64,000 nt of DNA from Roseivirga spongicola. GTDB taxonomy: Bacteria > Bacteroidota > Bacteroidia > Cytophagales > Cyclobacteriaceae. Positions within the stretch are counted from its first letter, which is position 1, and each line of letters begins with the position of its first letter. The position numbers were made by a program, and so were the translations under genes. The notes under the pieces were generated by a model. That model was not told where the DNA came from. It worked only from the letters and a program-made list of their open reading frames with translations, and did not search any database. This document shows, piece after piece, positions 30,024 through 33,707 of this stretch. Location: contig NZ_LRPC01000028.1 of assembly GCF_001592965.1 (NCBI RefSeq), forward strand, positions 558,001 through 622,000, in the 5' to 3' direction.

Positions 30024-31124
30024 CTATATTACTGATTTCTGCACCTCTCTAAACTGCTTTAATGCTGCGGCATAAGAGTCATTCCTCAGATTGATGGTAT
30101 TCTGGATTTTAAAAAAGTACTTATAAGGCTGAAATAGCACTTTTTCGTCTAGCGAGTTTTGCAGACCCAATAAGCCCGATACTCTATCTCCCAATAAATA
30201 AGCAACCAATGTTTTGCTTCGCCCTTTTAAAGGCGTATCTAAAGTGGCAGTTTCAAAATACCTGAGCAACGATTTAGTAAGCCTTATACCAGATTCACTT
30301 TGCCTAAATTGGCCTTCTCGAATATTCCGCTCCAGAATATATGCCTCTCTATTACTTTTAGGAAGCAATGCTTGGTTCACCCCTAACAAATCACCAATCA
30401 GATTCCAATAATTGATGTAACCAAAAGCCTCTTCGACACTCACAGACTTACCCAATTTCTTTAGCCCTCTAATCACAATCAGCGAAAAGGAAAGGTTGGT
30501 TCCGGCCATATCTTCTTGATTAACTGGCTGCCCCAGCTCAGAGGCATTCCACTCTGTTGTATGCAGAGCATACCAGCGAGCTGCTGCATGCATTAATCGA
30601 ACCTTAAGAATATCTGAAAGGGCTCTTCCCTTTGCACTAAAAGCATTTCTAGAACACACATTAAACACAAACTCTGCTGTTTCTAACAGTCGCTTCTCTG
30701 GATCTTCCAATATTCTTTTTGACCTTATTAACACCTCTGCTCCATTAGCGGCTGCATAACAATATGGCAAAGAAAGCATGCCTAATAAGAGCATAATGTC
30801 AGAAGCATGTTTATTGAAAAACTGTTGCCCCAATTTCAGATCACTCTCAGATAACTTATCTGATTTGCTCCAAATGTCTGTATAAAGCGCTACAAGAGTT
30901 GAATCAGCAGAATTAAGCAATTCACTTTCATTATTAACAATGAGTGCTAATTCTTGCTGCAAGCCTACTTTATTACTGGGAAAGTATTTAGAAATAACAG
31001 CATCGGCCAGTGAATCCGTTTGTTGCCTAAACTTCTTTAAGCCTCGTTTAGATATGTGCGTTAATGAGCTCACCCTTTGGAAACTACTACTTATGTTGAA
31101 AGTTTGAAAATCATCGAATTTCAA
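30024..31124 (-). CDS. MpaB-type oxygenase (DUF2236 family)
   Basis: This 366-residue all-helical protein has the signature residues of the MpaB/rubber oxygenase (Lcp) catalytic domain: VRLMHAAARWYAL, a His in a conserved helix that in this fold binds heme, NQEDMAGTNLSFSLIVIRGL and AFGYINYWNLIGDLLGV. Family members use heme b to cleave prenyl or isoprene chains. The substrate here is unknown. No signal peptide is visible. The palindromic element sits just after its stop. Confidence 0.82.
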   Translation of the reverse strand: MKFDDFQTFNISSSFQRVSSLTHISKRGLKKFRQQTDSLADAVISKYFPSNKVGLQQELALIVNNESELLNSADSTLVALYTDIWSKSDKLSESDLKLGQQFFNKHASDIMLLLGMLSLPYCYAAANGAEVLIRSKRILEDPEKRLLETAEFVFNVCSRNAFSAKGRALSDILKVRLMHAAARWYALHTTEWNASELGQPVNQEDMAGTNLSFSLIVIRGLKKLGKSVSVEEAFGYINYWNLIGDLLGVNQALLPKSNREAYILERNIREGQFRQSESGIRLTKSLLRYFETATLDTPLKGRSKTLVAYLLGDRVSGLLGLQNSLDEKVLFQPYKYFFKIQNTINLRNDSYAAALKQFREVQKSVI

Positions 31125-31172
31125 TTGACTACATATTTCCCTATTTTCCGAATCTCATTCAAACCAACCATT

Positions 31173-32048
31173 ATGAAAAAGCTCTTCTGTTTAAGCTTAC
31201 TCCTACTATTAAGCACAGCCATTTTTGGTCAGTCGGCACCACCTAGTACTGACATTTATGTTTATTCTATGAAAGAAAAGAAAGGTAAAATCAGTCTTTC
31301 TAAAGAGAAAAATATTACGAAAAGAGATGGTTATGACAATCAACCTTCATTCTTTAACAACGAATATATTCTCTACACCTCTTCGCAACAAGATGGACAG
31401 ACAGATATTATGATCTACGATTTGTATGAGGAAGAAGTAAAGAACTTAACTAATTCAAAAGACAGCGAATATTCCCCACTGCCCATCCCAGGCTTCAATT
31501 CATTTGCTGTAGTTAGAGTAGAAGCAGATAACAGCCAAAGGCTATGGATGTACCATATGGATGGAAAAAGTGAACCGCAGCTAATCTTTGACAAAATTCA
31601 GCCGGTGGGCTACTTTGCAATTAGCGAAAGAGATATTCTAATGTTTGTATTAGGACAACCAGTAACCATGGTAATGGCCAATATGGAAGAGGTAGATGAT
31701 GACATTATTACGAGTAATATAGGTAGAACTATTCGGCTCATTCCGGGCACAAAAGACTTTACTTTCGAAAGAAGAGAAGAGAACGGCACAACCTTAATTT
31801 ACCGATTGAATAAAAGCAGCAAGCAGTTCACTAAAGTAGTAGAAAAACCAAAAGGAGCATCTGATTGGACTATTACGGGAGAAGGTACTTACATAACAAG
31901 CGTTGGAGCTAAACTCTTGGCTTTCAACCCAGAGCATCACAATGAATGGGTAGAAATTATAGATTCTGGGCAAGTAGGTGCTAATGGCATTACTAGAATG
32001 GCTGTGAGTCAGGAAAATGATAAGCTTGCCATAGTTGTGAACAACTAG
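31173..32048 (+). CDS. Secreted PD40/TolB-like beta-propeller protein
   Basis: The frame opens at 31077, inside the divergent gene, but the ATG at 31173 starts a good signal peptide (MKKLFCLSLLLLLSTAIFGQ), so the protein is 291 residues. It has short WD40/PD40 strand repeats (DNQPSFFNNEYILYTSSQQDG, TDIMIYDLYEEEVKNLT, DSEYSPLPIPG). TolB-like propellers often bind peptides or glycan in the periplasm. The role is unknown. Confidence 0.75.
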   Translation: MKKLFCLSLLLLLSTAIFGQSAPPSTDIYVYSMKEKKGKISLSKEKNITKRDGYDNQPSFFNNEYILYTSSQQDGQTDIMIYDLYEEEVKNLTNSKDSEYSPLPIPGFNSFAVVRVEADNSQRLWMYHMDGKSEPQLIFDKIQPVGYFAISERDILMFVLGQPVTMVMANMEEVDDDIITSNIGRTIRLIPGTKDFTFERREENGTTLIYRLNKSSKQFTKVVEKPKGASDWTITGEGTYITSVGAKLLAFNPEHHNEWVEIIDSGQVGANGITRMAVSQENDKLAIVVNN

Positions 32049-32184
32049 TATGAAATCGTTTTTTAGTATCAAAAGTATTTCACAAATTCAGGCTGATTTT
32101 TACTAATAGAACAAGTTTGAAAGGCGATTAAATTGTATTATTGCTTTTCGTTGAAAGACAACCTAACCACATCAATAAGTAGCT

Positions 32185-33240
32185 ATGTTCAAAACTTACA
32201 CTTTTCCCAGTGTTATAGAAGGAAACAACACAGACCTTAAAAACGTATCTCCCGACCTAATTAATGGCTTAAAAATATTTCACGATGGCGAAGGCTATGT
32301 GATCGGAAATCTAGCTTTAACTGAAGGTGTTTCTCCACACAGAAACATCAACAGTGCACCAGACGAGCTAGACTATAATTTGCTTTTAAAGTCGGGACTT
32401 TTGTTGGCCAATCAGAAATTGGGCAACCCTCTTACTATAACTACTGGTTTTCCATTCTCAACCTTTCAGTTGTATAAAGAACAGGCTGCAGGACAAATTA
32501 ACGCCAACCACATTATAGATTATGATGCCGCCACTTTTGGTGGTGGTACCAGAAAAAATATTCAGGTCGAAATTGATGGTGTTCAGGTGATCCCAGAAGT
32601 TATTGGCTGTGCTATAGCCCTAAGAAAAGGAGCACAAAAGGTAGACGGCAATTTCTTTGTGATGTCGCTAGGTTATGGTACGCTAGAAGGACTCCTAAGT
32701 ACAGAAGGTGGTATTGTTCAAAGAACCTCCCTTTCCACTTACGGCTTGAGATACGCAGTAAACTTGTTAGAGAAAGAACTAGCTAAAACTTATTATTTAG
32801 AGCTTAAAACCGAGCATCAGATAGATGTAGCCTTTCAAAAGGGTATAATTTTCTTGAACAGAAAGAGAATTGACATCAAGTCTATGAGAGACAAATGTAT
32901 TCGTCAGTATTACGAAGATGTGGTTTCTCCTGCTATGAGAAAGGCCTTCAATGACAATGACTTTACCATGTCGCACAGAATGCTTCTTGCCGGAGGTGGC
33001 GCATTATACGGTCAGCTAGTAGAGTGCTTTAAAGAAGAGTTTCAAGATATTCTAGATTTAGAAGTAGCTCAAGAGCCACAATCGTTGGCCAGTAGAGGAT
33101 ATTGCATTAACTCGGCCCAATTAAATGGTGGCGTTAAAGGAAATGCAGTTGGTTTGGATATCGGAAACGCCACAACCATCGTTTCTATTTATGATGACAG
33201 TCAAACCACTGTGGAATCTTCTATCCCTGCTGAATATTAA
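32185..33240 (+). CDS. Actin-like ATPase of ParM/Ta0583 type, apparently circularly permuted
   Basis: This 351-residue protein has actin-like signatures in an unusual order. A phosphate-2-like motif (SLGYGT, 161-166) has Ser where the Asp is normally found. An adenosine motif (LLAGGGALYG, about 267-276) precedes the ParM-like tail EPQSLASRGY (297-306). The phosphate-1 motif (GLDIGNATTIVSIYDD) lies at 323-338, at the C-terminus, not at residue 5-15 where actins, ParM and MreB have it. The N-terminus begins at FPS, which in Ta0583 directly follows the first hairpin. An in-frame TAA at 32176-32178, two codons before the ATG, rules out a missed N-terminal hairpin. The stop overlaps the bactofilin start by one base. 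No parR-like gene is adjacent, so plasmid segregation is unlikely. Confidence 0.78.
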   Translation: MFKTYTFPSVIEGNNTDLKNVSPDLINGLKIFHDGEGYVIGNLALTEGVSPHRNINSAPDELDYNLLLKSGLLLANQKLGNPLTITTGFPFSTFQLYKEQAAGQINANHIIDYDAATFGGGTRKNIQVEIDGVQVIPEVIGCAIALRKGAQKVDGNFFVMSLGYGTLEGLLSTEGGIVQRTSLSTYGLRYAVNLLEKELAKTYYLELKTEHQIDVAFQKGIIFLNRKRIDIKSMRDKCIRQYYEDVVSPAMRKAFNDNDFTMSHRMLLAGGGALYGQLVECFKEEFQDILDLEVAQEPQSLASRGYCINSAQLNGGVKGNAVGLDIGNATTIVSIYDDSQTTVESSIPAEY

Positions 33241-33707
33241 TGAGTAGAAAAAACGAAAACGTTCAAAACCCTTCAACCTACATTACTCAAATTAGGAATG
33301 GTTCTGTGATTTCCGGCAATATGAAGTCGGAACACAGCATTCGAGTAGACGGCCATGTAACGGGCGACTTAGTGTCACAAGAGAAAATCATTATTGGCTC
33401 ACATGGAGAAATTGGAGGGAATTTAAGCGGAGCAGATATTACAATTGATGGATATGTAAATGGCGATGTACTTTCTAACGGACATTTGCACATCTCTCAA
33501 GCAGGCAAAATTTATGGGAAGATATTCGCAAAAGGTATCTCCGTAGAAAATGGTGCTGAACTAAATGGGAAAGTAACTGTAGGCAAAGAGGTAGAAATAC
33601 CAGAATTAAATACAAGCTCTCCTTCTCGTTCTACTAGAGATATTAACCTGAATAAGAGATCAGCCTCTGGAGACCAGAAGGATAACTACGGTACCGTAGC
33701 TTGGTAA
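33240..33707 (+). CDS. Bactofilin (polymer-forming cytoskeletal protein)
   Basis: This 155-residue protein has the bactofilin core (about 20-120) of short beta-helix repeats such as VISGNMKSEHSIRVDGHVTG, IIGSHGEIGGNLSGADITI and HISQAGKIYGKIFAKG, flanked by unstructured tails. Bactofilins assemble without nucleotide into filaments that localise wall enzymes or polarity factors. Its ATG shares one base with the stop of the actin-like gene, indicating coupling, and a terminator follows at 33761-33784. Whether the two polymers interact is inferred. Confidence 0.93.
   Translation: MSRKNENVQNPSTYITQIRNGSVISGNMKSEHSIRVDGHVTGDLVSQEKIIIGSHGEIGGNLSGADITIDGYVNGDVLSNGHLHISQAGKIYGKIFAKGISVENGAELNGKVTVGKEVEIPELNTSSPSRSTRDINLNKRSASGDQKDNYGTVAW

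Follow-up and report, generated by a model that had tools for sequence, protein, structure and literature searches.

Introduction

In actin, Hsp70 and the sugar kinases the chain opens with the phosphate-1 loop, a shared order that is regarded as fixed, and in the actin/ASKHA superfamily this loop is followed by the phosphate-2 and adenosine motifs. ParM belongs to a partition system with a ParR adaptor gene and a parC centromere, which is usually plasmid-borne. In the present study, an open reading frame (ORF) at positions 32185–33240 of a 64,000-nucleotide stretch of Roseivirga spongicola DNA (contig NZ_LRPC01000028.1; hereafter the window) was analysed computationally. Its product is almost certainly a natural circular permutant of a ParM/Ta0583-type actin-like protein, with the first β-hairpin, which carries the phosphate-1 motif, at the C-terminus.

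The superfamily fold with its three motifs was recognised by structure prediction and motif inspection, the phosphate-2 motif being degenerate. Kinship with the superfamily is supported, yet the usual chain order, one of its defining features, is not followed, the phosphate-1 motif being C-terminal in all 61 distinct full-length members of the family, the window protein included. The best-scoring solved folds for the predicted model were ParM-type actins, and from those compared (Dh-cParM1, 8x1i; pCBH ParM, 6ixw and 6izr; R1 ParM) the family differs in the C-terminal phosphate-1 hairpin and in a Ser in phosphate-2. It is also chromosomal with a bactofilin gene as neighbour, whereas ParM systems, as generally known, go with ParR and parC. 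The archaeal actin homologue Ta0583 (2fsj) has the ordinary order, and residue 1 of the window model falls on its residue 19. FcmB is, like CorM (9rmi), a cyanobacterial ParM-type actin, and residues 28–146 of the window protein fall on positions 93–201 of the FcmB profile, as an ordinary order would predict; neither “permut-” nor “bactofilin” occurs in the main text of the CorM/FcmB paper. PRTRC protein D from a Paraburkholderia plasmid (L092) is 24% identical to one family member (L046) over 72% of it. It shares FPS, GYGTL and GGGA with the permuted family but has an N-terminal phosphate-1 motif (AIDVGYGNTK) and an Asp in phosphate-2 (DAGYGT), so that its motifs run in the plain ordinary order AIDVGYGNTK, FPS, DAGYGTL, GGGA. 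The window protein stayed below the cut-offs of the MreB_Mbl profile (13.2 bits versus 27) and of the FtsA profile (12.6 bits versus 31.8), the latter matching through its positions 1–24 only, at residues 322–345. In the part of PMC10945521 that was available, no actin-like partner is named as a component of the described bactofilin–M23 peptidase module.

Results and Discussion

Chain Order of the Window Protein

The ORF starts with ATG on the forward strand and encodes 351 residues, in which SLGYGT (161–166), AGGGA (269–273) and GLDIGNATT (323–331) occupy the positions given in a preliminary description of this DNA, the last motif lying 20 residues before the end. An in-frame TAA at 32176–32178 is separated from the ATG by two codons (Val, Ala). 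Since there is room for only two extra residues, no N-terminal phosphate-1 motif is hidden upstream, and the earlier argument that this stop codon rules out an omitted N-terminus holds. The features of the gene are:

32185..33240 (stop codon included), + strand: putative circularly permuted actin-like protein, 351 residues; family of 61; AlphaFold2 mean predicted local distance difference test (pLDDT) 90.1, predicted template modelling score (pTM) 0.89
32188..32208, + strand: N-terminal strand, residues 2–8, predicted β3 equivalent from structure alignment; lost on in silico deletion of the C-terminal hairpin
32596..32598, + strand: Glu138, at what we take to be the catalytic Glu/Gln position in Hsp70, ParM and actin; invariant in 41 of 41 sequences; Hsp70 alignment
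32665..32682, + strand: phosphate-2 motif SLGYGT, Ser for Asp; aligns with Hsp70 DLGGGT
32989..33003, + strand: adenosine motif AGGGA; GGG in 41 of 41 sequences
33124..33144, + strand: short linker, residues 314–320, from the last helix to the putative relocated hairpin; alignment and AlphaFold2 model
33145..33192, + strand: putative relocated β1–β2 hairpin, strands 321–326 and 330–336; AlphaFold2, truncation and reordering tests
33151..33177, + strand: phosphate-1 motif GLDIGNATT, residues 323–331; conserved in the family
33193..33237, + strand: variable C-terminal tail, residues 340–351 with pLDDT below 50; alignment and AlphaFold2

Relocation of the first hairpin to the C-terminus, as proposed in the preliminary description, is supported by four concordant lines of evidence, namely the block order against Hsp70, the reordering against Pfam family ALP_N, the structure alignment and the in silico truncation. 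With HMMER, the family profile matched solved Hsp70 chains in permuted block order (for 5evz, profile positions 316–338 on residues 18–40, 126–179 on 182–236 and 251–288 on 335–374), each of the three blocks being weak alone (independent E-values 860, 3.2 and 160). Against solved structures the alignment profile matched Dh-cParM1 (E 0.00023, profile positions 36–142); no actin was among the PDB matches when phmmer was run with the single sequence.

ALP_N (PF17989) matched 34 of 41 members at E ≤ 1e-3, the window protein not being among the 34. A search of 198 genomes of the phylum with this profile gave seven places in six genomes, which their coordinates place in permuted proteins already recovered, and all seven matches started at profile position 16–21. 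The reordering sample consisted of six relatives and the window protein. When the hairpin was moved to the front, ALP_N aligned from position 1 in all six relatives tested, and the reordered score exceeded that of a shuffled hairpin by 5.6–8.7 bits. The relative L046 scored 50.6 bits in native order, 56.8 reordered and 51.0 with the shuffled hairpin; five further relatives (one shuffle each, N-terminal stretches) scored 44.7, 50.3, 42.3, 62.8 and 55.9 reordered versus 36.6, 41.9, 36.7, 54.1 and 47.4 shuffled. For the window protein itself, the N-terminal FtsA match rose from 12.6 bits in native order to 16.0 bits on reordering and disappeared with a shuffled hairpin.

AlphaFold2, run on the 41-row alignment, predicted an actin fold with the confidence values listed above. 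In the VIA-align comparison, residue 1 of the model fell on residue 23 of Dh-cParM1, 21 of pCBH ParM, 19 of Ta0583, 22 of Thermotoga maritima MreB, 24 of actin and 23 of DnaK. Among the 50 chains listed, 42, ParM-type and Ta0583 folds included, start at residue 18–29 opposite model residue 1 (in one case, model residue 2); the other eight start later, at 49–61 (CorM 61, BeeR 60, BiP 49). The aligned part of the model stops at 311–319, the two C-terminal strands forming the unaligned remainder. When the hairpin was omitted (residues 1–318, same 41 rows), the mean pLDDT was 83.7, the block means of residues 1–30 dropped by 53, 37 and 34 and strand 2–8 was gone, with smaller drops of 23 and 15 (residues 41–60), 13 (111–120), 14 (201–210) and 11 (new end). 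In actin folds β3 is an edge strand that pairs with β2, and loss of the N-terminal strand on truncation is therefore what a docked hairpin predicts. Because the deletion chiefly melts residues 1–30, the model indicates that the hairpin very likely closes the nucleotide site within its own subunit, in the phosphate-1 place where, by this truncation, it behaves as docked. Closure of the same subunit and swapping into a filament neighbour had both been proposed earlier; the former is favoured, and the latter is the less probable of the two.

Conservation of the Nucleotide Site

In the 41 aligned sequences, the window protein included, G323, D325, G327, N328 and T331 of the phosphate-1 motif, the GGG of the adenosine motif and Glu138, whose counterpart in the alignment is the Glu in INEPTAAA of Hsp70, are invariant. 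Residue 161, at the position of the phosphate-2 Asp, is Ser in 39 sequences, Gly in one and Asn in one, and Asp in none, which bears out the earlier remark on this substitution. From what is known of actin and Hsp70, loss of this Asp should slow hydrolysis more than binding. The protein, as judged from these residues, would bind ATP and assemble, with hydrolysis slow because the phosphate-2 Asp is Ser; we give this about an even chance.

Distribution of the Family

The records that contain relatives include those of Roseivirga, Odoribacter, Candidatus Azobacteroides and Culturomica. Queried with the single protein, the near set of 59 genomes had relatives in 19; with the profile, 24 of 395 genomes of the phylum and 26 of 196 of the family had them (own genome counted each time). 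The homologue search suggested in the preliminary description recovered the C-terminal phosphate-1 motif throughout, 60 of the 61 members being caught by a stricter pattern and the last (L002) having Val for Ile; four partial or split pieces (one of L021, three of L020) were excluded from the 61. No member carries an N-terminal phosphate-1 motif (0 of 61), the feature by which the preliminary description proposed to reject the idea. A looser DxG pattern matched the first 60 residues of two members, both times as DLGY at residue 34, which aligns around G36–Y38 of the window protein, away from any phosphate-1 position. From the first Gly of the motif to the chain end there are 15 to 32 residues (60 members of the stricter pattern), and the spacing from a conserved G-Y-C to the motif is 17–18 residues in 56 of 61, the linker being about 16–19 residues longer in Odoribacter and Azobacteroides. 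The Azobacteroides copy (L020:3992–5061) is spread over three reading frames, which may reflect a broken gene or a sequencing error.

A hairpin-less profile found no unpermuted close relative in the 198 phylum genomes: 16 permuted copies were recovered at E ≤ 5.5e-133, and the next best match, at E 0.0015, led a set of mostly short matches to residues 265–308. Judged by sequence, every close relative within this sample is permuted. In a tree of 46 proteins, families f54, f40 and Odoribacteraceae each formed one group, and f42 and f35 were each split in two, which may reflect transfer or old paralogy. A viral or phage origin was considered and dropped, no relative being confirmed among viral contigs (46 pattern matches) or phage records; phage proteins, Hsp70-like proteins of viruses and others came up when viral models were searched with Foldseek, a result that was left unused. 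Among plasmids the window protein had no match, and the sole match of a second family member was PRTRC protein D (24% identical).

Gene Neighbourhood

The gene downstream of the permuted actin in the window encodes a bactofilin, and its ATG shares one base with the stop codon of the actin gene (TAATG):

33240..33707, + strand: bactofilin (PF04519), 77.2 bits versus a cut-off of 27.9

Across 47 genomes, 41 of 49 actin copies, in 20 of 23 genera, are followed within 1.3 kb by a bactofilin match on their own strand, the chance expectation of such adjacency being about 0.0003 per genome. The count used 50 of 116 bactofilin matches (those near an actin and some others), and a copy cut by a contig end (G390) was excluded. 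Two genomes, G203 and G250, have two permuted actins each (L046, L047, L065, L066), with a bactofilin after each. In a neighbour table of 23 of 25 loci (L100 and L101 were dropped, the actin being lost in crude gene calling), no other gene recurred as widely as bactofilin.

In a bactofilin tree of 19 linked and 21 unlinked copies, the two kinds cluster apart (5 changes versus 13.7 in shuffles). A dedicated actin-linked bactofilin of single origin was nevertheless set aside, one origin lacking support: 16 of 37 inner branches were well supported, and two linked f35 copies stood among unlinked ones. Replacement of MreB finds no support, an ordinary MreB being present in all 30 host genomes searched (of 47).

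A gene for an M23 peptidase lies near the actin in loci L107 and L096. The order in L107 (4477–9502) is M23 peptidase, permuted actin, TPR protein, bactofilin, small ORF and ATP synthase subunit a, an order that related genes repeat in L108. A link between bactofilin and M23 peptidase has been published, and an M23 gene beside the module fits what could be seen of that report (PMC10945521).

Upstream of the actin in the window, a gene at 31077–32048 (+ strand) has a PD40 β-propeller match under the cut-off (17 versus 20.9 bits). The Roseivirga loci have genes for about 290–325 residues upstream of the actin, those of L001 and L010 being related to each other and unrelated to the other loci of the table. 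In two Odoribacter loci (L017 and L019), genes other than bactofilin follow the actin; from their first residues we take these to be phosphotransacetylase and acetate kinase.

Alternative Explanations

We give practically no credence to the explanation without permutation, in which a truncated or mis-annotated actin carries a chance C-terminal DxGN: similarity to known families is low and the pairwise test against PRTRC protein D described below is weak, but the motif is present in every one of the 61 members, and the tests by profile and by structure likewise speak against this explanation. A permutant could also complete its site by assembly, the hairpin swapping into the next filament subunit so that two chains contribute to each site. 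In favour of this are the free new ends and the longer linker of the Odoribacter/Azobacteroides branch, which would ease swapping; against it stand the confident monomer model, with its short linker (block 311–320, pLDDT 94), and the constant G-Y-C spacing, which make it quite improbable. A static role is less easily dismissed, although we still consider it unlikely: the protein may be a pseudo-ATPase, in which nucleotide is bound constitutively or not at all and the actin fold is a scaffold that serves as a static adaptor for bactofilin. The absence of the phosphate-2 Asp from all 41 sequences points that way, but a dead site would not need the invariant phosphate-1 Asp and Gly-Asn, the Glu at the catalytic position or the adenosine GGG. 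Rather less probable again is a ParM-like chromosomal partition or positioning actin whose cargo is something other than bactofilin, the latter being merely a downstream anchor. The top solved folds are ParM-type, and bactofilins organise ParABS in Myxococcus according to the portion seen of PMC5703909; no small adaptor-like gene recurred in the 23 loci, however, as far as BLAST clusters show, and the window protein had no plasmid match.

Several observations weigh against a bactofilin-linked permutant. The window protein gave no ALP_N match and reached no Pfam cut-off in either order. In the pairwise comparison with PRTRC protein D, for which the hairpin was trimmed to 18 residues and the natural spacing thereby shortened, the natural (reordered) order scored above the native one in 33 of 41 rows, a weak test: it outscored every one of the 200 shuffled hairpins in only 3 of 41 rows and all except two of them in 7 of 41, and the median best shuffle (141) exceeded the median natural score (132). 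AlphaFold2 was run on the monomer only, and the modelled place of the hairpin comes from a truncation in which loss of any core piece could reduce confidence. Eight of the 49 copies, in 3 of 23 genera (g96, g131 and g43), have no bactofilin beside them, all bactofilin matches of the genomes of these eight copies lying on other contigs. Nor was there a bactofilin at the Odoribacter, Azobacteroides or Culturomica loci of six additional genomes, two of them being without any bactofilin match. The copies are, moreover, non-independent, 26 of the 47 genomes coming from one family.

Proposed Mechanism and Significance

Computation supports the fold with its chain order, the conserved site and the gene pair, and likewise an N-terminal strand that depends on the C-terminal hairpin. 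In the permutant that we favour, the old C-terminus would be joined through the short linker to the old first β-hairpin, by duplication and loss or otherwise, and the new ends would lie in the β2–β3 turn, the chain beginning at β3 and ending just past β1–β2. The hairpin would fold back into its own subunit and complete the nucleotide site; ATP would be bound and filaments assembled, with slow turnover. From the gene neighbourhood, the actin may work with the adjacent bactofilin as a nucleotide-regulated partner that positions or arranges bactofilin scaffolds at the envelope alongside MreB, a role for which the chances seem evenly balanced. Taken as a whole, a permutant with an own-subunit site, ATP binding and a bactofilin partner is the likely explanation. 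The N-terminus (β3) and the variable C-terminal tail would meet at the β2–β3 turn, and that partners bind there is a guess; a Bacteroidota-wide permuted actin with a working site, docking bactofilin at these new ends, is accordingly put forward tentatively, at somewhat less than even chances.

Among the matches listed from the open-licence literature, no title or abstract start on a natural circularly permuted actin was found, in keeping with the preliminary description, which knew of no described family with this motif order. One report couples “circularly permuted” with ParM, the permuted items in the part seen being fluorescent proteins (PMC6695626), and a kinase classification, as far as it was available, takes circular permutation as a general criterion in defining fold groups (PMC1079889).

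An actin that is permuted in nature and well conserved would mean that new chain ends are tolerated by the fold. It would make testable how far filament formation and ATP-driven opening depend on chain order, and the design of permuted actins would have a natural template. Through the link with bactofilin, two bacterial cytoskeletons usually treated as separate subjects would be joined. If true, the cytoskeleton of these bacteria would consist of two polymers, with a permuted actin, driven by nucleotide, steering a bactofilin filament that is nucleotide-free.
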